This document shows, piece by piece, positions 3,778 through 30,480 of a stretch of 33,417 nucleotides of DNA (positions within the stretch are counted from its first letter, which is position 1; each line of letters starts with the position of its first letter). The notes beneath the pieces were generated by a model. That model was not told the origin of the DNA, ran no database searches, and saw only the letters and a program-made list of their open reading frames with translations. A program made the position numbers and the translations under genes. The DNA is from Sinosporangium album (GTDB taxonomy: Bacteria; Actinomycetota; Actinomycetes; Streptosporangiales; Streptosporangiaceae), in NCBI RefSeq assembly GCF_900100605.1, contig NZ_FNCN01000046.1, forward strand, positions 1-33,417, given 5' to 3'.

Positions 3778-3783
3778 TAGCCT
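3778..3783 (+). promoter_or_regulatory. Leaderless -10 box of the ygfZ-type gene
   Basis: TAGCCT 6 nt before ATG 3790, with no ribosome-binding site. Confidence 0.5.
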
Positions 3784-3789
3784 TGGGGG

Positions 3790-4776: not shown

Positions 4777-4785
4777 TCCGTCCGC

Positions 4786-4832: not shown

Positions 4833-4859
4833 GACAGGCCCGGGGTCGGCGGGCGGGCG

Positions 4860-5285: not shown

Positions 5286-5327
5286 GACATGTGATTCTTC
5301 CAGATCGGGGAGCAGGTTTGACGCCCG

Positions 5328-5348
5328 TAGACTCCCCCTCGAAGGGAG
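5328..5348 (+). promoter_or_regulatory. -10 box and ribosome-binding site of the asparaginase gene
   Basis: TAGACT at 5328-5333, then the Shine-Dalgarno GAAGGGAG at 5341-5348, 6 nt before ATG 5355. This gives a short leader, in contrast to the leaderless neighbours. Confidence 0.45.
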
Positions 5349-5354
5349 CGTGAA

Positions 5355-6305
5355 ATGTCGAGTGAGTCGTTGATTGTGGAGGTTGTCCGCTCGGGGTTCG
5401 TGGAGTCCACGCACCGCGCGAGGATGCTGACAGTGGACGCCGACGGTGCCCCCGTCAGCGTCCACGGTGCCGTTGACGCACTGGTCTCGCCACGGTCGTC
5501 GATGAAGCCGTTCCAGGTCATGGGCATGCTGCGATCAGGGCTCCCACTCGACGGCGAACTGCTCGCGCTCTCGTCCTCCAGTCACATGGGGGAGGCGTTC
5601 CAGGTGGACGGCGTACGCAAGATCCTCGCGGGGGTCGATCTCGACGAGAGCGCGTTGCGCTGTCCCGAGGCGCTCCCCGACCACCGGGAATCAGTCCGTG
5701 AGGTGCTGCGCTCGGGCGGAGCGCCCTCGCAGGTCTACATGAACTGCTCGGGCAAGCATGCCGCCATGCTCGCCACCTGCGTGGTCAACGACTGGTCCAC
5801 CGAGACCTACCTCGACCCGGCGCATCCGCTCCAGCGGGCGATCAGGGACACCGTCGAGGAATTCACCAGTGAACGGGTGGCCGCGACCGGGGTGGACGGG
5901 TGCGGAGCACCCCTCTTCTTCGTCTCGATGCCGGGCGTGACCCGGGCGTTCCGCAGGCTGACCCTGGCGGAGCCGGGCACACTGGAGCGGCGGCTCGCCG
6001 ACGCCATACGCGCCCACCCGGAGTGGGTGGCCGCCTCCGAGCTCCCGGAGACCACGGTGATGCGGGCGATCCCCGGCCTTCTGGTCAAGCCCGGCGCCGA
6101 AGGGTTCAGCGCCTTCAGTTACTCGGACGGCCGCGCCGGCTCGATCAAGATCGAAGACGGTGGCTCCCGGGCGCGTCCCCCCGTGACCGCCGCCGCCCTC
6201 CGCACGATCGGCCTCGACGCTCCCGAGCTCGCCACACTCGACTCCATCCCGCTGTTAGGCGGAGGCAAGCCGGTCGGCGAGATCCGGGTGCGCAAGGCCC
6301 ACTGA
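5355..6305 (+). CDS. Asparaginase, ReAV-like (Asparaginase_II family)
   Basis: 316-residue enzyme expected to hydrolyse L-asparagine to aspartate and ammonia. It belongs to the Rhizobium etli type (PF06089), not the common EcAII fold. The serine-lysine machinery of this family is visible: SSMK with Ser48 and Lys51, the same numbering as ReAV; SSSHMGE at 74-80; NCSGKH with Cys131 and Lys134; and DGCGAP with the Cys that pairs in the unusual zinc site. It has a clear Shine-Dalgarno sequence and is divergent from dtd with a 69-bp gap. No signal peptide, so cytoplasmic. Confidence 0.9.
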
Positions 6306-6344
6306 AGCCCACCGGCATCCGCGGGTGCGGGAGCCCTGGGAGAG

Positions 6345-7967
6345 TCAGCGGAGTTGCCGCGTGCCCGCGAGCGCTCCCGACACGGTGAGGGTGAAGGCCC
6401 GGAGGGAAGCGGGCAGCCTGGAGCCGTCCCAGCCCGCCGGACCGCGATACCACGCCACGCCCCGCGCCACCGCCCCCGGCGCGCTCCCCGCTCCGTCCCC
6501 CGCCGCGCTCCCCGCTCCGTCCCCCGACGTGGACGCCGGAAGCATCCGGGTCCACGCGTCCAGCGCGTCGAAGGCCACGGCATACGGCAGGTGGCGTGCG
6601 AACAGCGCCGTCCTCTCCTCGTCCGCCAGCCCCGCGGTCTCTGCCCCCGAGGTGAGGTAGTCCCGGAACGCCTCCGCCTGCCCGCGTGCGTCCGAGCCCG
6701 CCCGGCTGCGGGCGGGCATGTGCCGTGCCCCCGCGGTGAGAGCGGCCCCTCCGATGATCACAGCCAACCCCAGCAGGCCGTACGGCGTGAGCCACGCCAG
6801 CGCCACCGCCGCCGGAACCCCCACGGCGGTGAGCGCGACGCCGAGGGCGGTCCACGGCGTGCGTACGGCGTCCGGCCGATGGGCGAACCACCCCCGTCCG
6901 ACCATGTCCGCGTAGAGGGCGTCGCGCACCTCGCCGAGACGGCCCGCGAGCGTGCCGCCCAGCTCCGAGATCCGCACACTGTCCCTCTCCGCGAAGATCG
7001 CCGTGAAAAGCGCCCTTTCGTACGGCACCAGCCCCTCGGCCGACCGCTTCACCAGCAGCCAGTCCGGCGCGTCGTAGATCTCCCGGGCCGTCTCCTCCAC
7101 CGCCAGGTGCCCGCGGACGGCGAGGTCCACGATGGTCGCCGTCACGTCCACGACGTTCGCCCGCTCGTCCAGGAGCGTGCCGATCTGGCCCGGCCGTACT
7201 CCCTCCGGCGGCCCGACGACCGGCCTGCCCTCCCGCCTGCCGACCCGCGCGTCGCGGCCCGCCGTCCATCGGAGGAACGCGGCGCCGCCGAGGAGCAGCG
7301 CGAGCAGTACGGCGAGCGCCGCGCCCGTGACGGGGTTGACGTCGAAGGACTCCGACAGGTCGAACCGCCGGTCGAGGATGGGCGTGGCGCCGCTCGCATA
7401 GCGCGGGTAGGCCGCCACCACGGTCAGCACCTGGCCGGGGCCGAGGCCGCGCTGGCGGAAGGTCGCGGCCGATCTGTGGTGGTCCATCGTCGCCGACGTG
7501 CATCCGATGGCCGAGGTCAGGGCGCCGGCGAAGCACGACAGGCCCTGCAGCCGCTCCGGCCCGGTGACGGTGACGGTCGCCGAGGACACCGGCACGCTCA
7601 GCCCGCCGGCCGCGAACCACCGCATCTCCTCGACCTCGCCGTGCGGCGTCACCGCGCCGGTCACGTCGTAACTCACGGTGATGGTCTGCCGTCCCTTGCC
7701 CGAGATGGTGAGCCTGTCGTCCTCGACCGGGCCCGGGCCGGTGACGTTGGCGATGTGGTAGAGCCGGTCGTGCACGTCGTCGTGCTGGGCGCGGGTGAGC
7801 ACGGTGCGGGTGATCTCGCCGCCCGCCCCGAAATCGTGGGTGATCCGCTCGGTCACGTGGAGGACGCCCCTCTCGTCCAACTCCAGCGCCACGTCGTGGG
7901 TCGTGGGCCCGCCCGTGTGAGCGGACAGGGCCAGGACGGCCGACGCCGCGAGCTGACAGAGAGTCAT
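6345..7967 (-). CDS. DUF2207 domain membrane protein
   Basis: 540-residue predicted membrane protein. An N-terminal signal-like helix (residues 3-16) is followed by a beta-rich extracytoplasmic domain opening DVALELDERGVLHVTERI, typical of DUF2207. Next come a transmembrane helix (VTGAALAVLLALLLGGAAFL) and a cytoplasmic segment with PEGVRPGQIGTLLDERANVVDVTATIVDLAVRG, the hallmark of the family. One or two more helices (TALGVALTAVGVPAAVALAW, LLGLAVIIGGAALTAG) precede a Gly/Ala tail. The tail contains a short duplicated GDGAGSA unit encoded by a 24-bp direct repeat near 6,480-6,530. The family function is not established. The start at 7967 is supported by a leaderless -10 box (TACGCT) 7 nt upstream. 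Confidence 0.85.
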   Translation of the reverse strand: MTLCQLAASAVLALSAHTGGPTTHDVALELDERGVLHVTERITHDFGAGGEITRTVLTRAQHDDVHDRLYHIANVTGPGPVEDDRLTISGKGRQTITVSYDVTGAVTPHGEVEEMRWFAAGGLSVPVSSATVTVTGPERLQGLSCFAGALTSAIGCTSATMDHHRSAATFRQRGLGPGQVLTVVAAYPRYASGATPILDRRFDLSESFDVNPVTGAALAVLLALLLGGAAFLRWTAGRDARVGRREGRPVVGPPEGVRPGQIGTLLDERANVVDVTATIVDLAVRGHLAVEETAREIYDAPDWLLVKRSAEGLVPYERALFTAIFAERDSVRISELGGTLAGRLGEVRDALYADMVGRGWFAHRPDAVRTPWTALGVALTAVGVPAAVALAWLTPYGLLGLAVIIGGAALTAGARHMPARSRAGSDARGQAEAFRDYLTSGAETAGLADEERTALFARHLPYAVAFDALDAWTRMLPASTSGDGAGSAAGDGAGSAPGAVARGVAWYRGPAGWDGSRLPASLRAFTLTVSGALAGTRQLR

Positions 7968-7974
7968 GTCACGG

Positions 7975-7980
7975 AGCGTA
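7975..7980 (-). promoter_or_regulatory. Leaderless -10 box of the DUF2207 gene
   Basis: TACGCT on the minus strand, 7 nt before ATG 7967, with no Shine-Dalgarno sequence. Confidence 0.45.
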
Positions 7981-8049
7981 ACCAGATGGGTAGATGAGTC
8001 TCGGAGGTGACACGCCCCCGGGAAGACGGTCGGCATCGGGGGAGAGGCC

Positions 8050-8988
8050 ATGCTGCGCGATGATCGACGCGGTGATCGACGGGCTCACGCGGGCCACCGC
8101 CGTACGACGACCTGGACGGCGGCGCTGGGGCTCCTCGCCACCGTCCTCCTGATGTTGATCATGGTGGACGCCGTGGCCGAGCAGCGCCTCCAGGTCACCG
8201 GCCACACCGCGCCCGCCGGCCGCGCCGCGTACGGCACGGGCCCCGGCCGCCCGCACATGAGCCTCGACCGCGCGCGGGTGCTCAGGAGCAACCCCGTGTA
8301 CGGCGTGCGCGGCCTGAAGGGGTTCGACTGCCGGGCGCAGTCCATCGTGGACGGCGACGCCGCCTCCATGGCGGCTTTCATGGAACGGTTCACCGACTGC
8401 CTGGACCGCACCTGGGAGGCGGGGTTCGCCGAGGCCGGGGTGCGTTTCACCAGGCCCGGCCGGGTGTTCTGGGACACTCCGGGGCGCGGACCGTGCGGCG
8501 ACTACCCGGTGGCCGGGGCGTCGGCGTTCTACTGTCCGATCAACCGCGGGATGTATGTCGGCACCAGGGATATCGTCAAGGCGTCGGGGGGCGTCCCCGG
8601 TGCGATGTACGGCGTCTACGCCCGGGTGCTGGCCCATGAGTACTCCCACCACGTCCAGGACCAGGCCGGGATCCTGTCGCTGGCCTGGAGGCTGCGGGAC
8701 TCGACGCCCGCCGTGGAGGCCAATGAGATTACCCGCCGGGTGGAGCTCCAGGCGCAGTGCCTGGCGGGGGCGTACTTCGGGGCGGTGCGCCGTACGCTCC
8801 CCATGGGCGAGGGCCAGTGGGCGCTGGTGCTCAACGATTCGCGTTCACGCGGCGAGGACCGCAAGCCCGAGGGCGAGCGCGACCACGGGTCAGGGGCGAA
8901 CTACGCGGGGTGGCTCGACCGGGGCTACAACGCGGGGCATCCGGGGGTCTGCGACACGTGGACCGCTCCGCTGCGCGACGTGTCCTGA
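8050..8988 (+). CDS. Neutral zinc metallopeptidase (YpfJ family, membrane anchored)
   Basis: 312-residue protein of the putative neutral zinc metallopeptidase family (PF04228). A basic N-terminus leads into one transmembrane anchor (about residues 22-42), and the rest should lie outside the membrane. The zinc motif is HEYSHHVQDQ (His196, Glu197, His200), followed by an EANEITRRVELQAQCLAG segment that supplies the distal acidic ligand. Two Cys-containing stretches (GPCGDYP, AFYCPI) are conserved in the family and may form a disulphide. Substrate unknown. GGAGAGG lies just before ATG 8050. It is divergent from the DUF2207 gene, with 82 bp shared as promoter space. Confidence 0.85.
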   Translation: MLRDDRRGDRRAHAGHRRTTTWTAALGLLATVLLMLIMVDAVAEQRLQVTGHTAPAGRAAYGTGPGRPHMSLDRARVLRSNPVYGVRGLKGFDCRAQSIVDGDAASMAAFMERFTDCLDRTWEAGFAEAGVRFTRPGRVFWDTPGRGPCGDYPVAGASAFYCPINRGMYVGTRDIVKASGGVPGAMYGVYARVLAHEYSHHVQDQAGILSLAWRLRDSTPAVEANEITRRVELQAQCLAGAYFGAVRRTLPMGEGQWALVLNDSRSRGEDRKPEGERDHGSGANYAGWLDRGYNAGHPGVCDTWTAPLRDVS

Positions 8989-9144
8989 TCGCCCACCCAG
9001 GGTGTTTCTTCAGGACACGGGCGAAATCCCCGGCGTTCACCCCTGGGACGTGTCAAAATTCCAAACTGCTCGACACTGCTCGACACCGCTCAGGCCGTCG
9101 CCTGGGCCGCTCACGTGGATCCGCTCAAGAACGGTGGGGTGGTC

Positions 9145-9876
9145 ATGCGCGGGCTCGCCTTATCAGGTCGCCCTCTGGTCACCCGGGCCGCCGCAACAAT
9201 GGCGATATTGTGTGTAATTTCGGGCGCACTGACCGGGTGTAGCGGGGCCAGCAGCACCACACCCATTCCCGTCTCCGAGGCCGCGGCGCAGCCTCGAAAC
9301 GCCCCCGTCGTCGCCGTCCTCGGTGACAGCTTCACCGTCGGGTCGGGGCCGGTGCGGACATGGGACAGCTACGCGGCCAAGGTGGCCCGCCAGTTCGACT
9401 GGCAGCTCATCGTCGCCGGAGCTTCCGGCACCGGTTTCGTCAACCCCGGCAGGGTGGGGCGGAACTTCCACGAGTCCTTCGTACAGGAGCTGGCCTGGCG
9501 GCCCGCCCCTGACATGCTGATCGTCTCCGGAGGCCACAACGACCGCCGCACCCACCCCTTGACGGTCTATCGCGCAGCCGCCAAACTCCTGCGCGCCGTG
9601 CGCATACACTGGCCCGGCACCCGCGTGGTCGTCGTCGGCCCGATCTGGATCGGAGGCGCTCCCCGCTGGGCTTATCCCGTACGGGACGCCATCTCCCTGG
9701 CCTCCAAGCAGTCGCGGGTGACGTTCCTCGACCCGCTGGCCCGCCGATGGATCACGCCGCGGACCACTGGCATCCTGCTCCCCGACGGCGTGCATCCCAC
9801 CCACCAGGGGCATGTACGGCTCGCGCGCTGGCTGGCCCTGTCCCTCCAGGCCCGCGGCATCACCGCGGGCCGGTAG
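9145..9876 (+). CDS. SGNH/GDSL hydrolase lipoprotein
   Basis: 243-residue secreted lipoprotein esterase-like enzyme. A signal peptide ends in the lipobox ALTGC (Cys32). The SGNH blocks are present in order: GDSFT (catalytic Ser62), an ASGTGF segment with the block II Gly, GGHND (block III Asn), and DGVHPTHQGH with the Asp-x-x-His dyad near the C-terminus. It would act at the outer face of the membrane or in the wall on an ester-linked substrate that cannot be named. ATG 9145 gives a standard signal peptide; an in-frame GTG at 9115 would add ten residues. The region just upstream contains short CGACACTGCT-like repeats. Confidence 0.85.
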   Translation: MRGLALSGRPLVTRAAATMAILCVISGALTGCSGASSTTPIPVSEAAAQPRNAPVVAVLGDSFTVGSGPVRTWDSYAAKVARQFDWQLIVAGASGTGFVNPGRVGRNFHESFVQELAWRPAPDMLIVSGGHNDRRTHPLTVYRAAAKLLRAVRIHWPGTRVVVVGPIWIGGAPRWAYPVRDAISLASKQSRVTFLDPLARRWITPRTTGILLPDGVHPTHQGHVRLARWLALSLQARGITAGR

Positions 9877-9903
9877 GGGCCGACAGGGCCGGGCGTCACC
9901 GCG

Positions 9904-9934
9904 TGAGTGATCGGTCGCTGACCGGTCGCTCACG
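9904..9934. terminator. Hairpin after the SGNH hydrolase gene
   Basis: GTGAGTGATCGGTC pairs, with one wobble and a small bulge, with GACCGGTCGCTCAC. It lies between convergent genes and overlaps the 11-bp repeat array described separately. Confidence 0.4.
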
Positions 9935-9960
9935 AGTCGCTCACCGGTCGTTCACCAGGG
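9917..9960 (+). repeat. Four 11-bp direct repeats, PHO-box-like
   Basis: Units GCTGACCGGTC, GCTCACGAGTC, GCTCACCGGTC and GTTCACCAGGG follow one another at exactly 11 bp. The form G(T/C)TCACC-N4 resembles the PHO-box unit of actinomycetes, but the array lies between two gene ends, not in front of a gene. Confidence 0.6.
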
Positions 9961-10284
9961 GCCGTAGGGCCCGGAGTTGCCTCCCTTGCCCACCTCGCTG
10001 ACGGCGGGCTTCACGTCCGCGAGGTAGATGCCGGAGGCGATCACCGAGGCGATGGCGAAGATGTTGAGCTGGCCGAGCCCGATCCCGAAGTATCCGACGG
10101 CGGCCATGAAGGAGAACAGGGTCGCCAAGACCAGGATGATCAGCCACATCTTCTTGGTCTGCTTACCGGCGACGGCAAAAGCCCTGGCGGGGCTGCGGAT
10201 CGCGTGGATCAGTGCCCAGGCCGACATGCCGAAGGCGCAGATCGCGAGGATCCACATGATGAGGTCCAGGACGTTATAAAGCAT
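9952..10284 (-). CDS. DUF2516 family membrane protein
   Basis: 110-residue integral membrane protein with three predicted helices (about residues 5-24, 45-65 and 68-86) and a conserved amphipathic link with KQTKKMWL, which matches DUF2516. It is the homologue of the small membrane gene that follows hbhA in mycobacteria (Rv0476). Function unknown. TGGAG lies 6 nt before ATG 10284. It is the last gene of the XRE - HBHA-like - DUF2516 set, but a strong hairpin separates it from the HBHA-like gene, so it probably has its own transcript. Confidence 0.85.
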   Translation of the reverse strand: MLYNVLDLIMWILAICAFGMSAWALIHAIRSPARAFAVAGKQTKKMWLIILVLATLFSFMAAVGYFGIGLGQLNIFAIASVIASGIYLADVKPAVSEVGKGGNSGPYGPW

Positions 10285-10372
10285 GGGCGCTCCAGCAGGC
10301 TGCATCGTGCCGACCGGCTTAGGGACGGCCACTCCACCCTAAACGGTGACGTGACACGGCGGGAGACGGCGA

Positions 10373-10406
10373 AATGGCCCGAACCCCCTCAAGAGGTCGG
10401 GCCATT
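10373..10406 (-). terminator. Terminator hairpin of the HBHA-like gene
   Basis: Perfect 10-bp stem AATGGCCCGA / TCGGGCCATT around a 14-nt loop, 17 bp after the stop of the HBHA-like gene on the minus strand. Confidence 0.7.
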
Positions 10407-10422
10407 CTTGCGGATCCGCCGC

Positions 10423-10890
10423 TCAGTGGGAAGTGGTCGTCGTGCGCGGCTTGCGGGCACCGGTGGCCGTGCCGGTGCGGGTGCCGCTGCCGGTGGACCG
10501 CCGCGTCGTCGTCTTACGGGCCCGGGAGGCCGATGCGGACTTGGTCGTGTCGATCTGACGGCGGCGGGGCTTGCGACCGCCGTTGACGACCCGGCGGCCA
10601 CGCGTGGCGAACTCGTCGTAGAGCTCGCCGGCCCGGACCGTGAGATGGTCGGCGTAGTCCTTGGCCTTCTCCGGAAAGTCCCTGGCGTAGCTTTCGGCCT
10701 TCGACGCGTATTCGCGCGCCTTGCCGGGCAGCTCGCGGGCGGCCTCACGCAGATCGGGGCCGCGCGACTGCAGGCGCTGAAGCTGGTCGGGCAGTTCACG
10801 GAGCTTTTCCATCGCGAGGTCGCCCGCGCCTGCCACGGCGTAGAAGGGCTTGGTCTCGGTGAGCTTCTTCACCTCGGTGGCGAGTGTCAT
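10423..10890 (-). CDS. hbhA: HBHA-like heparin-binding hemagglutinin homologue
   Basis: 155-residue protein with the HBHA layout. A short N-terminal stretch (KPFYAVAGAGDLA) leads into a long charged coiled coil (about residues 25-95, ELPDQLQRLQ to DYADHLTVRAGELYDEF). A basic Arg/Lys/Thr/Ser tail of about 55 residues follows. In mycobacteria the Lys-rich tail binds sulphated glycans, and HBHA is surface exposed though it lacks a signal peptide. In non-pathogenic actinomycetes a role in cell envelope or polarity is more likely, which is inference. Its tail uses Arg and Thr, not the Lys/Ala/Pro repeats of mycobacteria. AGGAAAGG precedes ATG 10890. The gene starts 2 nt after the XRE regulator stops, indicating one operon. 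Confidence 0.8.
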   Translation of the reverse strand: MTLATEVKKLTETKPFYAVAGAGDLAMEKLRELPDQLQRLQSRGPDLREAARELPGKAREYASKAESYARDFPEKAKDYADHLTVRAGELYDEFATRGRRVVNGGRKPRRRQIDTTKSASASRARKTTTRRSTGSGTRTGTATGARKPRTTTTSH

Positions 10891-10892
10891 TG

Positions 10893-11423
10893 TCAGCCTT
10901 TCCTGGAATCCGGTGTGACGTGACCGTTGCACGAGGAGCGTGTCTCGTCCGTGAACGGCTCAAGCGCGACGAGGAACTCCTGCGGCAGCGGCGAGTCGTG
11001 CGCCTGCGGACCAGGGACGTCGCCCCCCTGTGGCCTCGGCTCGGGCCGGCCGTCCTCAGCCGTGGCCGCGACGTGCTCCGCGACCTGGTTCTCCTTGCGG
11101 AACGACTCGTAGATGTCGATCAGCACCTGGCGCTGGCGCTCCGTGATGAAGGTGTCGGCTCTGATCGCCGCCGTCACATCGCTCGGCGCCTCGCGGTCCT
11201 CCATGAGACCGGCACGCACGTAGAGCGCGCGGGCGGAGATGTGCAACCCCTTGGCGATCTGGTTGAGGATCTCCGCGCTGGGCTTGCGCAGCCCGCGCTC
11301 GATCTGGCTCAGGTAAGGGTTGGAGACCCCTGCCGACGCGGCGAGCTGACGCAGTGAGATCTTGGCCTGCGTGCGCTGCTCACGGATGTATTCGCCGATC
11401 GAGCCGACCTTGGGTAGTGCCAT
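10893..11423 (-). CDS. XRE-family regulator upstream of hbhA
   Basis: 176-residue regulator with an N-terminal helix-turn-helix of the Cro/CI type (SIGEYIREQRTQAKISLRQLAASAGVSNPYLSQIERG, split here only as its start and end: SIGEYIREQR ... NPYLSQIERG). A helical middle segment has ITERQRQVLIDIYESF, and a Pro/Asp-rich tail ends the protein. It is the positional and sequence counterpart of Rv0474 in the mycobacterial hbhA locus, so it probably regulates the downstream HBHA-like gene and itself. ATG 11423 is chosen because the domain starts at residue 8. Three TTGCAA boxes lie 25-56 bp upstream. Confidence 0.85.
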   Translation of the reverse strand: MALPKVGSIGEYIREQRTQAKISLRQLAASAGVSNPYLSQIERGLRKPSAEILNQIAKGLHISARALYVRAGLMEDREAPSDVTAAIRADTFITERQRQVLIDIYESFRKENQVAEHVAATAEDGRPEPRPQGGDVPGPQAHDSPLPQEFLVALEPFTDETRSSCNGHVTPDSRKG

Positions 11424-11447
11424 GCGCTCATTGTGCGTCACACCTGC

Positions 11448-11479
11448 TTGCAATTGCAAACTTATGGCTAACAGTTGCA
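11448..11479 (-). promoter_or_regulatory. Candidate autoregulatory operator (TTGCAA boxes)
   Basis: Perfect 12-bp palindrome TTGCAATTGCAA at 11448-11459 and a third TTGCAA at 11474-11479, just upstream of the XRE gene. A possible -10 (CACAAT at 11430-11435) would place the palindrome over the -35 region, a typical repressor position. Confidence 0.5.
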
Positions 11480-11559
11480 AGCGGCGTGTCGTGCGGACGG
11501 AGAAACACGCAGGTCACACGGGGGTTGTACAGGTTATGCCCGCGGAGGGAGAAGGAAAC

Positions 11560-12477
11560 TCAGGAAGGCAGCAGCCACAGCAGAGGCGCCGACACCGTCA
11601 GCGTCGCCGCGAGCAGCATGACCAAGAAGCGGAACCGCTTCGGCAGAATGGGAACCGGTGAGATCAACCGCTCCACCCGGGCCATCACCCCCGTGTGAGC
11701 CCCGAGCGCACCGCTCGGCGTAGGCACGGCGGCAGCCGCACCGAACCTCAGCAGAGCCGTGGCCAGACGGCGCGGCGAGCAGTGCTCCCGGGCCCGGTCG
11801 TCCGCCGCCATCTCGATGAGCAGCTCCACCGACGACTGAGCGCCCCGCACCACACCCGAGAACGGCATGGCCCGGCACAGGGCCGCGAACGGCAGCAGCA
11901 CGAGGTCGTGCCGCTCACGCGCGTGAGCCGACTCGTGGGCGAGCACCGCGCGCAACTCGTCGGGCGACAGCAGCGCCAAGGTGCCGGCGCTGACCACGAC
12001 CTGAGAACGCAGCCCCGGCACGCAGTAGGCGGCGGCGCCGGGATGATCGACCACGCGCACACCCGGCACGCCGGGATCCTCCCGCGCGATGAGCGCGAGC
12101 AGCATGCGATGGCGCCGGCGGGCGCGCAGCGTCTGGAAGGTCGCGCCGACCAGCACCGCGATCAGCACGCTCAACATGGTCATGCCGGAGATGAGCGCGA
12201 GCACGCGCGGCAGATCCAGCGGCACGGTGCCGCCCTCGCCGCCCGTATAAGCCGAGACCACGAAGTCGCGCATGCCGAGCAGCGCGCCCTTGCCGTACGG
12301 CTCGAACGCATAGGCGAGCAGGGCCCCGGTGGCGGCCAGGCCCCATGTGACCCCCAGCGCCTGCCACAGCAGGACCGCGGTGTGCGGAGCCCTGGTGGCC
12401 CACCGGGCGGAGTTGAGACGCCACGCCCCTAAGGTGGAGATGATCGCGAGCGCGGCGAGCGCCGCCGCCGCGATCAT
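11560..12477 (-). CDS. M56-family membrane metallopeptidase (BlaR1/MecR1-like protease, no sensor domain)
   Basis: 305-residue integral membrane zinc protease. Helices lie at about 2-18, 35-56, 92-115 and 281-303. The catalytic motif HESAH (His181, Glu182, His185) is followed by the third ligand Glu222 in EMAADDRA. BlaR1/MecR1 proteases cleave their cognate BlaI/MecI repressor when triggered. This protein has no C-terminal penicillin-binding sensor domain, as is common in actinobacterial BlaI-M56 pairs, and its signal is unknown. The start overlaps the blaI stop by 4 bp (ATGA), so the two are translationally coupled. Confidence 0.9.
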   Translation of the reverse strand: MIAAAALAALAIISTLGAWRLNSARWATRAPHTAVLLWQALGVTWGLAATGALLAYAFEPYGKGALLGMRDFVVSAYTGGEGGTVPLDLPRVLALISGMTMLSVLIAVLVGATFQTLRARRRHRMLLALIAREDPGVPGVRVVDHPGAAAYCVPGLRSQVVVSAGTLALLSPDELRAVLAHESAHARERHDLVLLPFAALCRAMPFSGVVRGAQSSVELLIEMAADDRAREHCSPRRLATALLRFGAAAAVPTPSGALGAHTGVMARVERLISPVPILPKRFRFLVMLLAATLTVSAPLLWLLPS

Positions 12478-12830
12478 TCCTCCTCCAGCTCCGTGAGCGC
12501 CTTGCGGAGGATCTCGGCCTCAGAGCCCGACACGGCCTGGGCGAAGCGGGTGAGCGCGGCGTCGCGGTCACCGGTCATGCCGAGGGCTTTGAGCATGAGC
12601 TCGGCGACATAGGTGTCGCGGCTCTCGGTGGACTGGTAGCGCCACGCGCGACCGTCACGGGTCCGCACGAGGAACCCCTTGCGGGTCAACCGGTCGAGCA
12701 CGGTCATCACGGTCGTGGGCGCGAGGTCGCGCCCCGCGATGAGACGGCCCACCTCGCGGGCCGTCACCGGGGCGCTCTGCGCCCAAAGGATGTCCATGAT
12801 GCTGCGTTCGAGCTCGCCCAGTCCCTTCAC
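12474..12830 (-). CDS. blaI: BlaI/MecI/CopY-family repressor
   Basis: 118-residue winged-helix repressor: LGELERSIMDILWAQ, then APVTAREVGRLIAG, the recognition region LAPTTVMTVLDRLTRKGFL, and a helical C-terminal dimerisation part. It is expected to repress its own operon and to be removed by the adjacent M56 protease. The GTG at 12830 is preferred over the upstream ATG at 12887. The family normally begins at this point, and the palindromic operator (12862-12871) would otherwise lie within the coding region. The ribosome-binding site is weak (GGGTGG). Confidence 0.85.
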   Translation of the reverse strand: MKGLGELERSIMDILWAQSAPVTAREVGRLIAGRDLAPTTVMTVLDRLTRKGFLVRTRDGRAWRYQSTESRDTYVAELMLKALGMTGDRDAALTRFAQAVSGSEAEILRKALTELEEE

Positions 12831-12861
12831 GCCACCCAGGTTAGCGCGGGGGCCACCAGGT

Positions 12862-12871
12862 GTAGTACTAC
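12862..12871. promoter_or_regulatory. Candidate BlaI operator
   Basis: Perfect 10-bp palindrome GTAGTACTAC, 31 bp before the blaI GTG. TACTAC/GTAGTA half-sites are the form bound by BlaI/MecI-family repressors. It overlaps a possible -10 (TAGTAC on the minus strand). Confidence 0.55.
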
Positions 12872-12904
12872 GGGTTGTCGAGTTCATACTGTCCCGCTTG
12901 GCCC

Positions 12905-13120
12905 TGGTCGGTGCGTGAGTCCGGTCTATTCGGCCGCTGAGGACCGCTCCCATCTGCTCGCCTCCTGCTATCGCGAGTCGCTGCGCGTCGCCGACGAACT
13001 CGGCGCCCGCGCGCGCCTTCCCCGCGATCTCGACGGGGGTGTACGGCTGGCCGATGGACGACGGCGCCCGCGTCGCGGTGGAGACGGTGACGCAGGCTGC
13101 GACATCGGTGACTGACGTAG
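12905..13120 (+). pseudogene. Macrodomain (O-acetyl-ADP-ribose deacetylase) C-terminal remnant, frameshifted
   Basis: One frame reads SPVYSAAEDRSHLLASCYR continuing ESLRVADELGAR, the middle of an ADP-ribose-binding macrodomain. At about 13010 the homology moves to another frame: AFPAISTGVYGWPMDD, then GARVAVETV, the conserved ligand-binding loop and final helix. The N-terminal half is missing and the remnant runs against the blaI promoter. A complete member would remove acetyl from O-acetyl-ADP-ribose or ADP-ribose from proteins; this copy cannot. The frameshift is seen directly in the sequence. Confidence 0.7.
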
Positions 13121-13205
13121 GTTTGTCCTGTTCAGTGCCTCAGCCTATGCGCACTTCCAGGAGGCTTTCAGCCGTTTGGTGTGACAGGTCGTGGCCTATG
13201 CCCGC

Positions 13206-14033
13206 CTAGAGGGGGGCCACGCGGGGCGCCACCGCCGCCCACGGCACGCTGACCTCGCCGAGCCGCCACCGCGCCCGCCCGCCGAGCGGGGGAGTGGTCG
13301 CGATCGGCCAGGTGCGGGCGAGCAGCTCCACGGAGGCGATGAAGCGCTGGCGCAAGCCGTACGCCCCAAGAGGTGCGCAGACGGCCCACGCACGGTCGAA
13401 ATCCGACAGGAGCGCGTGGATCGCCTCGCCCTCCACGTTTCTGTGGATCAGCGCCTTGGGGAGGCGTTCCGCGAGGTCGGACGGCCGGTCGATGCCGGTC
13501 AGCCGGGCGGAGAGCGTCAGCGTGCGCGGCCCGGCGGCGTCGAGCGTCACCCAGGTGGCGCGATGGCCGATCTCCGAGCAGGTGCCCTCGACGATCACGC
13601 CTCCGGGCGCCAGGCGCCCGCGCAGCAGGTCCCAGGCGGCGAGCGCCCGCTCCTCGTCGTACTGCCGCAGCACGTTGAACGCCCGCACCACCGCCGGGGG
13701 CCGCGCCGTCGGCAGTTCGAACCCGCCGAGCGCGAAGGTCAGCCCGGGCCGGGCGTACGGCACCGCCCCCGCGACCCTGGCCGGATCGATCTCCAGCCCC
13801 GCCACCTCCACCGCGGGAGCCACGCGGCGCAGGCGGGTGAACAGCTCGGTCGTGGTGATGTGGGACGCGCCGTAGCCGAGGTCCACCACGAGCGGCCCGG
13901 GGCCGCTCGCCGGTGAGGCGGCCCGCAGCGTCGGCCCGTAGACGGCCGTGAGCCACCTGTCGCACCGCCGCAGGCGGTTGTGCCAGGTCGTGCCGCGGGT
14001 GATCTCGCCGACAGGCCGTCTTCCCGTGCGCAT
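13206..14033 (-). CDS. Class I SAM-dependent methyltransferase
   Basis: 275-residue Rossmann-fold methyltransferase. Motif I is LVVDLGYGAS (residues 48-57), followed by an acidic end of strand 2 (VAGLEIDPARV). Motif IV is about VVRAFNVLRQYDE, and a post-IV strand LAPGGVIVEGTCSE comes before a beta-rich C-terminal part. The substrate is not evident. The stop is followed by the end of the repeat-free core segment before the macrodomain remnant. The start lies 3 nt after the SDR gene stops, so the two form an operon with the SDR first. Confidence 0.8.
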   Translation of the reverse strand: MRTGRRPVGEITRGTTWHNRLRRCDRWLTAVYGPTLRAASPASGPGPLVVDLGYGASHITTTELFTRLRRVAPAVEVAGLEIDPARVAGAVPYARPGLTFALGGFELPTARPPAVVRAFNVLRQYDEERALAAWDLLRGRLAPGGVIVEGTCSEIGHRATWVTLDAAGPRTLTLSARLTGIDRPSDLAERLPKALIHRNVEGEAIHALLSDFDRAWAVCAPLGAYGLRQRFIASVELLARTWPIATTPPLGGRARWRLGEVSVPWAAVAPRVAPL

Positions 14034-14036
14034 CGG

Positions 14037-14777
14037 TCAGGTGAGGCGGTGGATCTTGTACTGCGCGGCCTGCGCCCGGGGGCGCATCACCAGGCGGTCG
14101 ATGTTGACGTGCGCCGGCCGGGTGACCGTCCAGGCGATCGCGTCGGCCACGTCGTCGGCAGTCAGCGGGCCGGGCACCCCTTCGTAGACCTTGGCCGCGG
14201 CCTCCGCGTCGCCGCGGAACCTCACCAGGGAGAACTCCTCGGTCTCGACCATCCCCGGCGCGATCTCCACGATCCGGACGGGCTGCCCGCACAGTTCGAG
14301 CCTGAGGGTCTCGGTCATCCCGGTCTGCGCGTGCTTGGCCGCGACGTAACCGCCGCCGCCCTCGTAGGAGATCAGCCCGGCGACGCTCGTCAGCATCAGC
14401 AGCACGCCGTCGCCCGACTCGATCAGCTTGGGCAGCAGCGCCTGGGTCACGCGCAGCGTGCCGAGCACGTTGACGTCGTACATCCGCTGCCAGTCCGCCG
14501 GGTCGCCCTCGGCCACGGATTCCAGGCCGACCGCGCCGCCCGCGTTGTTGATCAGGACGTCGCAGCGGTCGAGCGAGGCGGCGAACTCGTCCACCGACGC
14601 CTGGGAGGTGATATCCAGGGTCGCCGCCCGGACTCCGGGCGTCTCGGCCGCGAGCCTGTCCAGCCGGTCGCGCCGGCGGGCCGCCGCCACCACGTCGAAC
14701 CCCTCGGCCGCGAGCCGCCGCGCGGTCGCCGCGCCGATGCCGCTGCTCGCTCCGGTCACCACCGCCGTCTTCGTCAT
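14037..14777 (-). CDS. Classical SDR-family oxidoreductase
   Basis: 246-residue short-chain dehydrogenase. The cofactor motif TGASSGIG is at 8-15, with ARR after strand 2 suggesting NADP(H) preference. NNAG is at 77-80, the catalytic Ser131 in LTSVAG, and YVAAK holds Tyr144 and Lys148. The catalytic set is complete. The substrate is unknown. A leaderless -10 box (TAGGAT) 8 nt upstream fixes ATG 14777. It is divergent from mshA. Confidence 0.9.
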
Positions 14778-14785
14778 GGCTCGCC

Positions 14786-14791
14786 ATCCTA
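14786..14791 (-). promoter_or_regulatory. Leaderless -10 box of the SDR gene
   Basis: TAGGAT on the minus strand, 8 nt before ATG 14777, with no Shine-Dalgarno sequence. Confidence 0.45.
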
Positions 14792-14976
14792 AAAGGCTTT
14801 GGCGCGAGGGCTTTGGCGTGGTCGTCACGCAGTTGTCAGGCCGTCGTCATTCGAGGGACCGTCTAGGCGGAGAAAAGCCACCCCGGCGTACAAAGTGCCT
14901 TTCGGTGAATGTCACCGTATCTGGGGGAATCTCAGGCCGATTCGGGGAGTTAATACCCCTTCGGAGGTGGTGTCAG

Positions 14977-16254
14977 GTGAGGCGACGGCGGGTCCACCGG
15001 GTCGCGACGGTCAGCATGCATACGTCGCCCCTCGATCAGCCCGGCACAGGCGACGCCGGCGGGCTGAACGTCTACGTGGTCGAGGTCGCCAGGCGGCTGG
15101 CCCAGCTGGACATCGAGGTCGAGATCTTCACCCGGCAGACCGCCCGCGACCTGCCACCCGTGGTCGAGATGGCCCCCGGGGTGCTCGTGCGCCACGTCAC
15201 GGCGGGGCCGTACGAAGAGCTCGACAAAGGCGACCTCCCCGGCCAGCTCTGTGCGTTCCTCTCCGGCGTGTTGCGCACTGAGGCGATGTACGACCCCGGC
15301 CGCTACGACGTCATCCACTCGCACTACTGGCTGTCCGGACAGGTCGGCTGGCTCGCCAAGGAACGGTGGGGAGTTCCTCTCGTCCACACCATGCACACCA
15401 TGGCGAAGGTCAAGAACCTGCTCCTCGCCGAGGACGACAACCCCGAACCCAAGGCCCGCGTGATCGGCGAAGAGCAGGTCGTCGACGTCGCCGACCGCCT
15501 CATCGCCAACACCGACGCCGAGGCCGCCGAACTGATCGACCTGTACGGCGCCGCCCCCGCACGCGTCGCCGTCGTCAACCCCGGCGTGAACCTGTCGGTC
15601 TTCCAGCCCGCCTCCAAGGGGGCCGCCAGACACCGGCTCGACCTGCCGCAGGACGCCCACGTCCTGCTGTTCGTGGGCCGGATCCAGCCCCTCAAGGCCC
15701 CCGACGTGCTGCTGCGCGCCGCTGCCCGCATGCTCGTCGACGATCCCTCCCTGCGCGAGCGCCTCATCGTCGCCTGCGTCGGCGGGCCCAGCGGCAACGG
15801 CCTCGCCCGGCCCGACTTCCTCGCCCGGCTCGCCGACGAGCTCGGCATCGCCGACGTCGTACGGCTGGTGCCCCCCGCACGCCAGGAGGAACTCGCCGAC
15901 TGGTACCGCGCCGCCGACGTCACCGTCGTCCCCTCCCACAACGAGTCGTTCGGCCTCGTCGCCCTGGAGTCCCAGGCGTGCGGCACGCCGGTCGTCGCCG
16001 CGTCCGTCGGCGGACTGCGCACCGCCGTACACGACGGGGTGTCGGGGCTCCTCGTCGACGGGCACGACCCCGCCGCATGGGCTCATGCGCTGCGGTCCAT
16101 CGTCACCCGCCCGAGCCTGCGCGAGCGCCTCGCCCGCGGCGCCCCCGGGCACGCCGCGGCCTTCGGCTGGTCGGCCACCGCCGCCCGCCTTGCCGAGGTG
16201 TACACCGGAGCGTTGCGGCGGCTCCACCGCGTTCCCCTGGCGGTGAACTCTTAG
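14977..16254 (+). CDS. mshA: D-inositol-3-phosphate glycosyltransferase (mycothiol synthesis, first step)
   Basis: 425-residue GT-B (GT4) enzyme that joins N-acetylglucosamine from UDP-GlcNAc to 1L-myo-inositol-1-phosphate, the first committed step to mycothiol, the main low-molecular-weight thiol of actinobacteria. Visible hallmarks are [20 protein letters not shown] near the N-terminus (acceptor and phosphate contacts), [11 protein letters not shown], the donor-domain phosphate motif [11 protein letters not shown], and the [20 protein letters not shown] loop with the E-x7-E pattern. The GTG at 14977 has GGAGGT 8 nt upstream. A much longer open frame reaching back to 14428 has no homology and runs antisense to the SDR. 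It is followed closely by the YbjN gene. Confidence 0.93.
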
Positions 16255-16264
16255 GGTGGTCGCT

Positions 16265-16747
16265 GTGAGGGAGCTGATCGAAACCGCGCTCAAGGACGCC
16301 GAAGTGAGCTTTGAGGAGCCGCGCCCCGGCGCCTTCCTCGTCACCCTTCCCGGGCAGCGCAAGCTCGCCACCATGACCTGGCTGATCGTCGGCGCCCAGG
16401 CGCTGCACGTCGAGGCGTTCTTCTGCCGCAAGCCCGACGAGAACCACGCCGAGTTCTACCGGTGGCTGCTGACGCGCAACGGGTCGATGTACGGCGTGCA
16501 CTTCGCCCTCGACTCCGTGGGAGACGTCTACCTCGTCGGCCGCCTCCCCCTCCACGGCGTCACTGAGGAGGAGATCGACCGGCTGCTGGGCTGCGTGCTC
16601 ACCTATTCCGACGAAGGGTTCAACCGGGCGCTCGAACTCGGGTTCGCCTCCTCGATCCGGCGAGAATGGGAATGGCGCGCGAAGCGCGGAGAATCACTTG
16701 CCAATCTCCGCGCGTTCGCCAGGTTCGCCGACCCCGACACCGAGTGA
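16265..16747 (+). CDS. YbjN-domain protein
   Basis: About 160 residues of the YbjN fold, related to type III secretion chaperones: an N-terminal helix ([13 protein letters not shown]), a beta-sheet with [20 protein letters not shown], then [12 protein letters not shown] and a C-terminal helix pair ending in a basic segment. Its place directly after mshA and before gpmA is conserved in Streptomyces and relatives. The molecular role is not established. Two in-frame GTG codons (16256 and 16265) are equally possible starts; both lie within a few bases of the mshA stop, so translation is probably coupled to mshA. Confidence 0.82.
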
Positions 16748-27901: not shown

Positions 27902-28855
27902 ATGGCTGGTGGCGGAAGGGCGTCGGGTAGGCCCTCGAAGAAGAAGAGCCCCACAAAGGGCAGCGGCGGCAAGGTTCGCCGTTCCCTGGAGGGCAAGGGC
28001 GCGACCCCGCCCGCCCACATGCGGCATTGGTATAAGGACCGCCAGCGTGAGGCGGCAGCGACAGGCGGTGCACGCCCCGCGACCCCCGCGCCCCGCAAGG
28101 TGAGGCGCGACGATACCAACGAGATCGTCGGCGGTCGCAACCCCGTCGTCGAGGCGCTCCGGGCAGGCATCCCCGCGACCGCGCTCTACGTGGGGCAGCG
28201 CCTCGACAGCGACGACCGCGTCCGCGAATCCATCAAGATCGCGGCTGACCGCGGCATCGCGCTGCTTGAGGTCTCCCGCGAGCGGCTCGACCGTCTCACG
28301 GGCGGCACCCACCACCAGGGTCTCGCCCTGCAGATCCCGCCCTACGAATACGCCCACCCCGACGATCTGGTGAGTTTCGCCCAGGACGCGACGGAAGTGC
28401 CCCTGATCGTCGCCCTCGACAGCGTCACCGACCCCCGCAACCTCGGCGCGATCGCCCGCTCCACCACCGCCTTCGGCGGCCACGGCATCGTCGTCCCGCA
28501 GCGCCGCTCCGTCGGCGTCACCGCCGGCGCCTGGAAGACCTCCGCCGGCACTCTCGCCCACCTTCCCGTCGCCCGCGCCGCGAACCTCACGAGCACTCTC
28601 CGTGAATACCGCGCCGCCGGCCTCTTCGTCGTCGGCCTCGACGGCGACGGCACCACCGAGCTCGGCGACCTCCAGCTCGCCACTGAGCCCCTCGTCGTGG
28701 TCGTCGGCTCCGAGGGCAAGGGCCTTTCCCGCCTCGTCCGCGACACCTGCGACGTCGTCGTCCGCATCCCCATGCACGCCGCTGCCGAGTCCCTCAACGC
28801 CGGCGTGGCCACCGGCATCGCCCTCTACGAGATCGCCCGCCTCCGCCGCGGCTGA
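27902..28855 (+). CDS. rlmB: 23S rRNA (guanosine-2'-O-)-methyltransferase RlmB
   Basis: 317-residue SPOUT methyltransferase, expected to methylate the 2'-O of G2251 in the P-loop of 23S rRNA. A basic disordered extension (about 1-70, rich in Lys, Arg, Pro) comes before the substrate-binding domain that starts at [15 protein letters not shown]. The SPOUT knot follows: motif 1 [19 protein letters not shown], motif 2 [18 protein letters not shown] and motif 3 [20 protein letters not shown], which together form the SAM-binding trefoil. The extended N-terminus is usual in actinomycetes. The start is defined by the leaderless promoter. Confidence 0.93.
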
Positions 28856-28865
28856 CCCGGCCCCA

Positions 28866-28957
28866 GCGGGCCTCCCGCAGTCCCCGTGTCGGCCTCGCCG
28901 TACCGGTCTTCCTGTACGGCGGAAGCCGACCCGCGGGCCGTGGCCGTGGTCGGCTTC
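28866..28957 (+). terminator. Three successive hairpins after rlmB
   Basis: GCGGG/CCCGC (28866-28878), GCCGTAC/GTACGGC (28897-28920) and GAAGCCGAC/GTCGGCTTC (28922-28957) lie in the 100 bp after the stop. Together they form a likely termination zone before the tRNA gene. Confidence 0.5.
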
Positions 28958-29038: not shown

Positions 29039-29111
29039 GCCGACGTAGCTCAATCGGCAGAGCGGCTGTCTTGTAAACAGCAGGCCAGGGGTTCGATTCC
29101 CCTCGTCGGCT
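29039..29111 (+). tRNA. tRNA-Thr (anticodon TGT)
   Basis: 73-nt cloverleaf. Acceptor GCCGACG/CGTCGGC, D arm GCTC...GAGC, anticodon stem GCTGT/ACAGC around CTTGTAA with anticodon TGT, and T arm CAGGGGTTCGATTCCCCTC. CCA is not encoded. Its 3' half is the integration target of the element that follows. Confidence 0.95.
29070..29111 (+). repeat. attL: tRNA-Thr 3' half, first copy of the att duplication
   Basis: From the anticodon loop to the discriminator base. It recurs 1,164 bp downstream with two substitutions. The tRNA gene is restored by this copy, as usual for tRNA-targeting integrases. Confidence 0.8.
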
Positions 29112-29119
29112 CGCAGCGC

Positions 29120-29154
29120 AAAGGGCCCCTTGCGATCAAGCAAGGGGCCCTTTT
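29120..29154 (+). terminator. Rho-independent terminator of tRNA-Thr
   Basis: 14-bp perfect stem AAAGGGCCCCTTGC / GCAAGGGGCCCTTT, loop GATCAA, ending in TTTT. A decayed copy of the same hairpin lies at 30284-30314 after the second att site. Confidence 0.85.
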
Positions 29155-29172
29155 GCTAACACTTTTGCTAAC
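29155..29172 (+). repeat. Arm-type repeat pair 1 (GCTAAC x2)
   Basis: GCTAAC at 29155 and 29167, spaced 12 bp, just inside attL. Resembles arm-type binding sites of a tyrosine integrase. Confidence 0.5.
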
Positions 29173-29182
29173 AGCGGGTCGG

Positions 29183-29262
29183 TCAGGCCGCCGCGTCCTT
29201 GATCGCCTGGGCGAAGATATCAGCGGCCGTCGCCAACTTCTCGGACACCACTCGGTGTCGGT
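29183..29262 (-). pseudogene. Integrase C-terminal remnant 1
   Basis: On the minus strand the frame ends VVSEKLATAADIFAQAIKD then AAA and stop. Just upstream, in a shifted frame, is VTDT, the start of the catalytic-Tyr box of tyrosine recombinases, with the Tyr codon lost. The scrap abuts attL with its 3' end facing the tRNA, the standard position of such integrases. It resembles remnant 2 near 30,345. Confidence 0.5.
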
Positions 29263-29263
29263 G

Positions 29264-29500
29264 ACGGCTCACCTGTTTCAACAGGAACTGCGCAAGTCCG
29301 CGACCGCGATCGGACGGGAGGTCTTCGCCACCAGGATCACCGCGCCCGATGGCGCGTTGGACTGGCGCAGCGGCGACTGGGACGAACTGGTCTACGAGCC
29401 CATCGAGGTCCCCGAGCCGATCAGGAATCGCCTGCATGCCTACCTCGACCGGCTCGGGCTGGTGTTCGGGTGCTTCGATTTCGTCCTCGGTGAGGACCAT
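29264..29500 (+). pseudogene. ATP-grasp peptide ligase (graspetide synthetase) fragment
   Basis: The frame reads HLFQQELRKSATAIGREVFA, then TRITAPDGALDWRSGDWDEL, then YEPIEVPEPI and LDRLGLVFGCFDFVLGED. This matches the C-terminal ATP-grasp region of actinobacterial RiPP maturases of the TgmB/MvdD type. In order it shows the strand with VFA-x-RI, the DWR turn and LGLVFG-x-FDFV before the metal-binding glutamates. The N-terminal two thirds and the final FLE-x-N metal motif are missing. Intact enzymes form ester or amide cross-links between acidic and Ser/Thr/Lys side chains of a precursor peptide. Identification is from motif memory and not from a search. Confidence 0.65.
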
Positions 29501-30053
29501 CCCCTGGCCGTGGCTGTGGCAGGTCCGCGTCGGCGGGACCATCACCGCCCCCATGTGCGGCTGGATGGGCGGGGTCGCCTTCGCTCATCTGACCATGGGC
29601 GGGAACGACATAGCCCAAGGCCGGTTCCTGAACGAAGATCTGTTCTTCATGACCGCCCGGTCCCACCTGCCGCCGCCGCGTCCACCGATGGTGTCCGGCC
29701 TGGGGGAGGCTCGCCAGAGCAGGATAGATCCGTCGATTCTCCAGGATGAGACTGGCACATGGGTGGCCCAGCTCGCTGTTCCGCAGGCGCAGCACTCTTG
29801 GAGTGATGACAGGGCCTTCCTCGTGGATGTCGGCACCGGATCCAGGGCTAGCGCCAAGCCGTCCCCTGACGGCGGCTGGGTCGCGTATCAGTCCGGTCCC
29901 GTCCGTCTGTGGGATGCGGTTGAAGACGTGATCCTCACCTGGCAGGAGGCGGGTCGGCCACATCAGTCGGAGTTCGGACTCACAGCGACACCTGACGAAC
30001 AGTGGGTATGGCTTGGCGACCCCAGTGGCCCTCGCTGGTATCTGCCGGCATAG
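29501..30053 (+). pseudogene. PIMT-like methyltransferase C-terminal fragment (graspetide-associated)
   Basis: In a different frame from the ATP-grasp piece, starting about WPWLWQVRVGGTITAP (the post-Rossmann GGxIxxP strand of protein-isoaspartate methyltransferases). It continues through GRFLNEDLFFMTARSH and ends QSGPVRLWDAVEDVILTWQE, AGRPHQSEFGLTATPDEQWV, WLGDP. The tail with its GP-RLWD, AGRP and FGLT-TPD-Q-VWL elements is typical of the PIMT homologues encoded next to ATP-grasp RiPP ligases. The SAM-binding half is deleted. The gene order, ligase then methyltransferase, is that of complete graspetide clusters. Confidence 0.65.
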
Positions 30054-30107
30054 CTGCTGCCGCCTACCTGCCCAGTGAGAGATGTGGACAGGACGGCCGC
30101 TGATCTT

Positions 30108-30125
30108 GCTAACGGCAGTGCTAAC
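30108..30125 (+). repeat. Arm-type repeat pair 2 (GCTAAC x2)
   Basis: GCTAAC at 30108 and 30120, again spaced 12 bp, near the right end of the element. Confidence 0.5.
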
Positions 30126-30233
30126 AGCGGCCGGGGACGGCGGTGGACACCGAGAGAAGGCGATCAAGCTGATTTGGTGTCTGAGCTGGGCAGATGAGAC
30201 GTGGAGAGACTCCTGGAGAGGGGCCTCAGCCGA

Positions 30234-30275
30234 CTTGTGAACAGCAGGCCAGGGGTTCGATTCCCCTCGTCGACT
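30234..30275 (+). repeat. attR: second copy of the tRNA-Thr 3' half
   Basis: 40 of 42 positions match 29070-29111 (differences at 30239 and 30273). The similarity continues into the terminator hairpin and beyond, up to the integrase stop codon. Confidence 0.8.
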
Positions 30276-30317
30276 CGCAGCGCAAAGGCCCCTTGCGATC
30301 AAGCACGGGGCCTTCAT

Positions 30318-30335
30318 GCTAACGGCGTTGCTAAC
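30318..30335 (+). repeat. Arm-type repeat pair 3 (GCTAAC x2)
   Basis: GCTAAC at 30318 and 30330, spaced 12 bp, placed relative to attR as pair 1 is to attL. It would belong to the older element. Confidence 0.5.
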
Positions 30336-30344
30336 AGTGTGCCG

Positions 30345-30480
30345 TTATCTCTTGATCGCCTCAGTGAAGATCTCCGCCACCACCGACCCGGCCCCGGCGG
30401 GCCTCCCGCCGCCCTCGAGTGTGATCGCCGGATCGCCGTGCCCGAGCCGCGCCCGACCTTGGTGAAGGCGAGCGTGAGCT
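30345..30480 (-). pseudogene. Integrase C-terminal remnant 2
   Basis: Minus-strand frame ends RARLGHGDPAITLE, a short diverged stretch, then SVVAEIFTEAIKR and stop. LGHGDPAITL is the conserved box II His region of tyrosine recombinases. The Tyr box that should follow is deleted, and a frameshift lies just upstream (a KVG/ARLGH break). Its stop lies within 2 bp of the position predicted from remnant 1 plus the 1,164-bp offset, so it is the corresponding gene of an earlier, related element. Confidence 0.6.

Follow-up and report, generated by a model that had tools for sequence, protein, structure and literature searches.

Streptomyces AICEs stack or accrete at tRNA genes, tRNA-Thr among them, and carry strongly pseudogenised cargo; in the same accessible parts of PMC9513070, DAICEs are described as keeping traB, and AICEs and DAICEs together span 11.9-36.3 kb. 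Those parts of the paper mention no graspetide cargo for either kind of element. Actinobacterial graspetide clusters have a TIGR04187 ligase and a TIGR04188 PIMT-like methyltransferase, according to the accessible parts of PMC8939145 and PMC10787088, and graspetide clusters on integrated elements are not described in the accessible part of PMC11118758. No literature pairing graspetides with integrative and conjugative elements was found in a search whose scope left out most subscription papers and bioRxiv preprints.

The locus described here lies near the right end of a 33,417-nucleotide contig of Sinosporangium album (NZ_FNCN01000046.1), which was analysed whole and is referred to as the window. 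Comparison with AICEs, and with graspetide clusters in the same genome and elsewhere, indicates that a short interval behind its tRNA-Thr gene is very probably the remnant of a pSAM2-type AICE with graspetide cargo, reduced by two deletions.

The tRNA-Thr site and the element ends

ARAGORN found one tRNA in the window, an intact tRNA-Thr(TGT) at 29039-29112 (+) behind rlmB, the 3' half of which forms the attL side. In each of the 54 loci L033-L086 the same tRNA follows rlmB at a distance of no more than 1.4 kb. A direct repeat of 64 nt with 92% identity (29065-29128 and 30229-30292, both +, 1164 nt from start to start) comprises the tRNA 3' half and the start of the terminator; its second copy is the attR of the element next to the tRNA (element 1), with the tRNA-Thr 3' half at 30229-30276 and the terminator start behind it. 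An additional, overlapping repeat stretch, 61 nt at 80%, spans the terminator and GCTAAC words. The terminator-like element is a hairpin 3' of the tRNA (29120-29153, +), the arms of which (29120-29133 and 29140-29153) are fully complementary. The tRNA and the repeat together confirm the 1.16-kb interval between two tRNA-Thr 3' halves that was proposed in the initial annotation, and the duplicated 3' half is the trace of site-specific integration into a tRNA, a property of AICEs. A separate 49-nt repeat (28841-28889 and 30372-30420) was considered as a duplication of the sequence behind rlmB; it was dropped and put down to chance, because 30345-30467 reads as integrase.

The pattern TGCTAAC-N5-TGCTAACA, scanned for with up to two mismatches tolerated, was found at three places in the window, always without a mismatch (0.00 expected from shuffles). 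The pairs lie on the plus strand at the left end of element 1 (29154-29173), at its right end (30107-30126) and at the left end of a second element (30317-30336). All six exact copies of TGCTAAC in the window belong to these three evenly spaced pairs, which are placed as integrase arm sites would be and which we infer to be such sites.

Downstream of the second pair, the conserved right end of element 1 (30125-30230, +) aligns over 108 columns, at 81% identity, with its counterpart in a graspetide island on another contig of this genome, C48. Part of this end is common to elements in other genera. When the right end and core were searched for in 250 genomes of the family, a match was obtained in 158, mostly to the tRNA half only; among the matches listed, alignments across most of the right end (68-73% identity) came from G202 (two places), G120, G200, G147 and G107. 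Local BLAST among 341 sequences (the loci and the window) aligned the inner part of this end only between the window and C48, and in the 250-genome search longer, weaker alignments in other genera do span it.

Two scraps of integrase lie on the minus strand. The first, at 29183-29251, carries a stop codon and is assigned to element 1; its stretch 29186-29251 reads as the C-terminal 22 residues of an AICE integrase, with 59% identity to that of locus L149 (E 0.002 in a search of the window). The second, at 30345-30467, holds RARLGHGDPAITL and a stop, and is 45% identical over 40 aa (E 0.004); this integrase end, from about 30351 to 30467, is rearranged. Each scrap is weak alone, and none of 2000 shuffles reached the score of either. 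Both are placed where the integrase ends in L149 and, by eye, in the congener G001. Because the second scrap lies beyond the half tRNA, two elements are probably stacked at this tRNA-Thr. A T-arm scan of the last 3 kb of the window, up to the contig end at 33417, found no right end of the second element (tRNA and one half only). A regulator with a double GntR domain and an XRE-type regulator are encoded near the contig end (31985-33139) and may belong to the second element. The second integrase scrap, the three TGCTAAC pairs and the conserved right end were all absent from the initial annotation.

A complete relative is found in L149 (genome G120), in which tRNA-Thr and its half lie 17.8 kb apart and the right end is 76% identical over 63 bp. 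Between the halves are an integrase (PF00589), a RepSA replication initiator (E 1.9e-159) and an FtsK_SpoIIIE gene; this element is a pSAM2-type AICE at tRNA-Thr. The ends of the interval are accordingly related to those of a complete AICE, through the right end and the tRNA-Thr halves of L149. The L149 AICE also carries a 1625-aa helicase-like protein (3195-8072, by eye), possibly a defence gene. Shorter elements with a related end, 5.7 and 4.4 kb long, are present in L150 and L151, and G001 has the same tRNA-Thr, a similar pair and, by eye, an integrase-like end; graspetide genes are absent from the 10 kb of G001 examined.

The site was surveyed in the best 80 of 516 RlmB loci, from named genomes, with 0.4 to 9.9 kb of sequence downstream of the tRNA, past which longer elements may extend. 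The tRNA-Thr was present in 77 of the 80 loci, and 13 of these 77 have a second half tRNA downstream (36 to 44 of 44 bases matching; at most 26 in the others), so that the tRNA-Thr(TGT) site is a hot spot with other cargo. None of the 80 loci had graspetide genes at the site at E <= 1e-6 (RlmB control 80 of 80). The expectation that an intact element would be found at the same tRNA-Thr in relatives was therefore not borne out in these best 80 of 516 loci; intact relatives are at other sites.

No match to RepSA was found anywhere in the window at E <= 1, and the only match to an FtsK/TraB-type transfer gene is a chance-level one of 33 aa (E 0.66) outside the interval. An intact integrase of the L149 type was not found in the same genome, where the best match is 28% identical. 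Since homologues of RepSA and FtsK are absent, the relic is a remnant, neither an AICE today nor a DAICE as that term is used in the accessible text of PMC9513070, where traB is kept.

Graspetide enzyme scraps and clusters in the same genome

The profile of the graspetide ATP-grasp ligase, TIGR04187, matches 29246-29497 (E 5.1e-21) over its positions 190-278 of 312, with a score under the curated cut-off. The corresponding ligase scrap, 29252-29497 (+), has no internal stop and is 40% identical over 84 aa to the intact ligase on C48. TIGR04188, the profile for the methyltransferase of ATP-grasp peptide systems, matches 29484-30002 (E 3.3e-42, positions 182-361 of 363, below its cut-off); this scrap, 29484-30053 (+), is the C-terminal half of a PIMT-like methyltransferase that runs without internal stop to the stop codon at 30053, with at most 69% identity to relatives. 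The border between the two lies at about 29485-29500. At E <= 1 Pfam gave no match for either enzyme scrap or for the three minus-strand frames tested. The integrase scrap, ligase part and methyltransferase part named in the initial annotation are thus present, with coordinates good to a base or two, and both translations fall to graspetide-system profiles as it had suggested they might.

The ligase scrap lacks its first approximately 190 profile positions and its end, and the methyltransferase scrap lacks the first approximately 180 positions, which, judged against an intact gene, are the SAM-binding part. Owing to these losses both scraps, which were identified by sequence comparison, are presumably dead as enzymes. 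What is left can neither direct the synthesis of a peptide nor move on its own. When the window was searched with the precursor or precursor-like sequences from three relatives, nothing scored below E 0.047; divergent precursors could escape such a search.

The genome has a graspetide ligase at four places: besides the window these are C48, where it is intact, C9, where a stop interrupts it, and C25, where it is cut. The C48 ligase scores 361.5 bits, over the cut-off, and the methyltransferase 288 bits, below its cut-off of 380; ahead of the two is a 95-aa gene in precursor position, for which NCBIfam gives no recognition. Ligase followed by PIMT, cited earlier as the gene order of graspetide clusters, is the order of this intact cluster as well. 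Damage to graspetide clusters is repeated within this one genome: on contig C9 the cluster has a TAA in the ligase, and on contig C25 (L023 21-1152) the N-terminal part of the ligase stops about 40 bp from an ORF that resembles, by motif, an IS3-type transposase.

The C48 cluster lies within a 4.7-kb island (contig C48, 45960-50656). The left edge of the island consists of a tRNA 3' half, a terminator and one GCTAACA, with 79% identity to the window over 96 columns, and among 15 tRNA types the half matches tRNA-Thr best; the right edge is that of the window. The island sits at a place without a tRNA, with both ends present. Its site is empty, with the flanking genes adjacent, in five of the seven relatives compared, and the other two gave no plus-strand match. 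Queries for the AICE integrase, RepSA and FtsK had no match in the island.

Graspetide clusters on mobile DNA elsewhere

TIGR04187 was detected in at least 95 of 150 genomes of the family at E <= 1e-15. Among 80 regions around graspetide ligases in the family, each at most 20 kb, none had an AICE-type integrase, searched for with two queries, or RepSA at E <= 1e-8, a search that short scraps would escape, and two had an FtsK-like homologue at the same threshold. Two of the 80, L256 and L290, lie between a tRNA and a duplicate of its half, as scanned with a tRNA library of 15 anticodon types from the loci examined. Halves of tRNAs are also present in L229, L235, L258 and L274; in L258 and L274 the clusters lie beside their islands, not inside. 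Thirteen more graspetide regions (L298-L310) had no tRNA or half.

In L256 the half follows the tRNA-Pro 5409 nt on (94% over 47 nt), and G008 has this site empty, with sequence like that beyond the L256 half directly behind the tRNA. The cassette encodes a ligase, a methyltransferase, an XRE/DUF5753 protein and a DUF397 protein. This 5.4-kb graspetide cassette (7888-13373) yielded no AICE core genes; its ligase lacks the first 18 profile positions and is in frame with upstream precursor-like sequence, and may be decayed or fused. In L290 a half of tRNA-Arg lies 9712 nt on (93% over 43 nt) and a weaker one at 12,675 nt (33 of 44). The ligase is full-length (249 bits, below the cut-off), and no TIGR04188-type partner was found in the locus. 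An integrase-like end beside the tRNA was seen by eye and is not among the tblastn matches at E 0.01. The stretch 3646-16400, with two duplicated halves and, by eye, an ABC transporter-like gene, probably represents stacked remnants at tRNA-Arg.

L229, in genome G061, is bracketed at 42 kb (G061:C5, about 129430-171676; L356, L357, L291 and L229) at tRNA-Pro(CGG). The element has an integrase end beside the tRNA-Pro and genes for terminase, portal, protease, major head and tape-measure proteins, and is a tailed-phage prophage. Its graspetide cluster is intact (precursor, ligase and methyltransferase), with a precursor recognised by TIGR04186 (E 2.9e-13), and ends about 340 bp before the half tRNA (attR). 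A 40.6-kb viral contig of IMG/VR (UViG_2724679248_000001) ends with the same ligase (100% identity) and precursor. Relatives of this ligase, with 42-100% identity, are encoded on eight IMG/VR contigs (L358-L365), four of which (L359, L361, L363 and L365) also have the methyltransferase; on L365 an integrase-like ORF, recognised by eye, is next to a tRNA-like half. The C48 ligase had no match among the viral contigs. In phage records the L229 ligase was matched in 2 of 50,697, at 31.0% and 27.6% identity, and graspetide ligases are on 79 of 72,556 plasmid records.

The L256 and L290 islands, the G061 prophage, the IMG/VR contig and the plasmid records establish that graspetide clusters are carried on mobile DNA. 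Clusters lie on the 3' side of eight of ten tRNAs near ligases (one-sided p 0.055), six of the eight having no duplicated half above background by 44-base matching. In 56 genomes, 2 of 53 ligase loci fall within islands at tRNA-Pro, where 0.07 would be expected (p 0.0023), a post hoc figure among the matches listed, as tRNA-Pro was chosen after the hits had been seen. The statistic used 38 islands (428 kb of 421 Mb) and drew on the listed ligase matches and genomes with G112 left out; the island pairs were checked as tRNA plus half in G010 and G061 only. Enrichment of graspetide clusters on mobile DNA is at most suggested by these numbers. A mobile lineage for the window's own cluster was also considered, as relatives of its methyltransferase occur in 115 of 341 genomes; it was not supported, since none of the 29 loci examined beyond the window has the right end within 1.5 kb.

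As a tentative proposal, which we hold to be possible and no better than that, graspetide clusters might be recurrent cargo of several kinds of tRNA-integrating element in the family, often at the element end, and be spread by them. The kinds in question would be AICE remnants, cassettes with AICE-like ends and no AICE core, and tailed-phage prophages.

Origin of the interval and comparison with known systems

The repeats, the TGCTAAC pairs, the integrase and enzyme scraps, the related AICE ends and the matching ends of the C48 island are direct observations. The assignment to an AICE rests on the ends and the integrase scraps, and the main support for graspetide genes as its cargo is the C48 island, even though the absence of a TGCTAAC pair on the right of that island counts against it, as does the single GCTAACA on the left; the pairs, judged by eye, are not kept there. 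Also weighing against this reading are the lack of graspetide genes at the 80 rlmB/tRNA-Thr loci, of AICE-type integrase and RepSA in the 80 ligase regions, of the right end near the 29 methyltransferase relatives, and of a right end for the second element in the last 3 kb of the window.

A pSAM2-type AICE would have entered tRNA-Thr(TGT) when its integrase recombined the tRNA 3' half with the element's own copy, the integrase of element 1 presumably binding TGCTAAC pairs that flanked the core. Towards its right end the AICE would have carried the ATP-grasp ligase and then the PIMT-like methyltransferase, presumably with a precursor gene; the former precursor and transfer genes may be supposed to have been part of element 1. 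A related element would already have been at the same site, or would have entered it later (stacking or accretion). One deletion may have joined the last approximately 22 integrase codons to the ligase at about profile position 190, removing the core, and another the ligase at about 278 to the methyltransferase at about 182, leaving element 1 with 1.16 kb; the order of these events is conjectural. Trimming and fusion by deletion had been suggested before, and the scraps support it with two deletions needed, integrase into ligase and ligase into methyltransferase. The earlier proposals of a site-specific element targeting tRNA-Thr and of a graspetide pathway once carried on mobile DNA are upheld too, the former by the ends, the TGCTAAC pairs, the integrase scraps and the relation to L149; the carrier can now be named as a remnant of a pSAM2/RepSA-type AICE, probably one of two stacked.

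The graspetide genes could instead have been chromosomal, or have come with another insertion, their remains being placed between the half tRNAs by rearrangement. In favour of this, graspetide ligases are common in the family, and the 29 loci with relatives of the methyltransferase scrap all lack the right end within 1.5 kb. We nevertheless consider it improbable: the right end starts only about 70 bp past the methyltransferase stop (30053 to 30125), the C48 island has the same order of methyltransferase and then right end, and the intact cluster of L229 also lies directly at an element end. The last of these is a prophage, and that phages can carry such cargo, at the attR end in the 42-kb tRNA-Pro element of G061, raises the question of whether the carrier was a prophage rather than an AICE. 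This is very unlikely, as the ends and the integrase resemble those of a RepSA/FtsK-type AICE at tRNA-Thr and the scraps already described take up the 1.1-kb interval.

An assembly artefact joining pieces of different repeats deserves mention in a draft genome of 97 contigs, where other graspetide fragments lie at a contig end (C39) or within 0.7 kb of one (C25). Over the 64 nt of the repeat, however, 8% of sites differ between its copies, and the interval is inside a 33-kb contig, though the right end of that contig is only 3 kb off; the chance of an artefact is correspondingly slight. Least credible is that the tRNA 3' region and the sequence downstream were duplicated in tandem, with unrelated debris between and no integrative element, since a local duplication, to which the downstream repetition of terminator, TGCTAAC pair and integrase end might be ascribed, cannot bring in integrase ends, the further pair at 30107-30126 and a right end shared across genera.

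Read as the remnant of an AICE, the relic itself is ordinary element decay, and it connects a patchily distributed family of peptide natural products with carriers that can be named and whose ends can be defined. Should AICEs and prophages indeed carry graspetide clusters, excision and transfer assays could test how the clusters spread, and it would be sensible to hypothesise that they play a part when carriers compete with non-carriers.

Cis-mobilizable elements are a class with which the C48 island and L256 can be compared. Like these elements, the two have two att-like ends and cargo, with no homologue of the AICE integrase, RepSA or FtsK found; in contrast to them, the C48 island and L256 are known from sequence alone, and the genome is without an intact L149-type integrase. 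The AICE of L149 shares with the window the tRNA-Thr(TGT) target, a related right end and the integrase C-terminus, and differs in its complete core and other cargo, with no graspetide match. The DAICEs of Streptomyces, as presented in the accessible parts of PMC9513070, are likewise remnants between direct repeats at a tRNA, with stacking, use of a tRNA-Thr site and pseudogenised cargo; unlike them, the relic measures 1.16 kb and consists of ends and scraps only. In the actinobacterial graspetide clusters of PMC8939145 and PMC10787088, as far as the accessible parts of these papers go, the same methyltransferase family stands beside ATP-grasp ligases, as on C48, and the long C-terminal extension of RiPP-linked PIMT homologues corresponds to most of what remains of the methyltransferase in the window. 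The window departs from those clusters in that both genes are truncated, a precursor was not found and the genes lie inside element ends. The decay of an element at a tRNA gene is of a familiar kind; the cargo is unusual.
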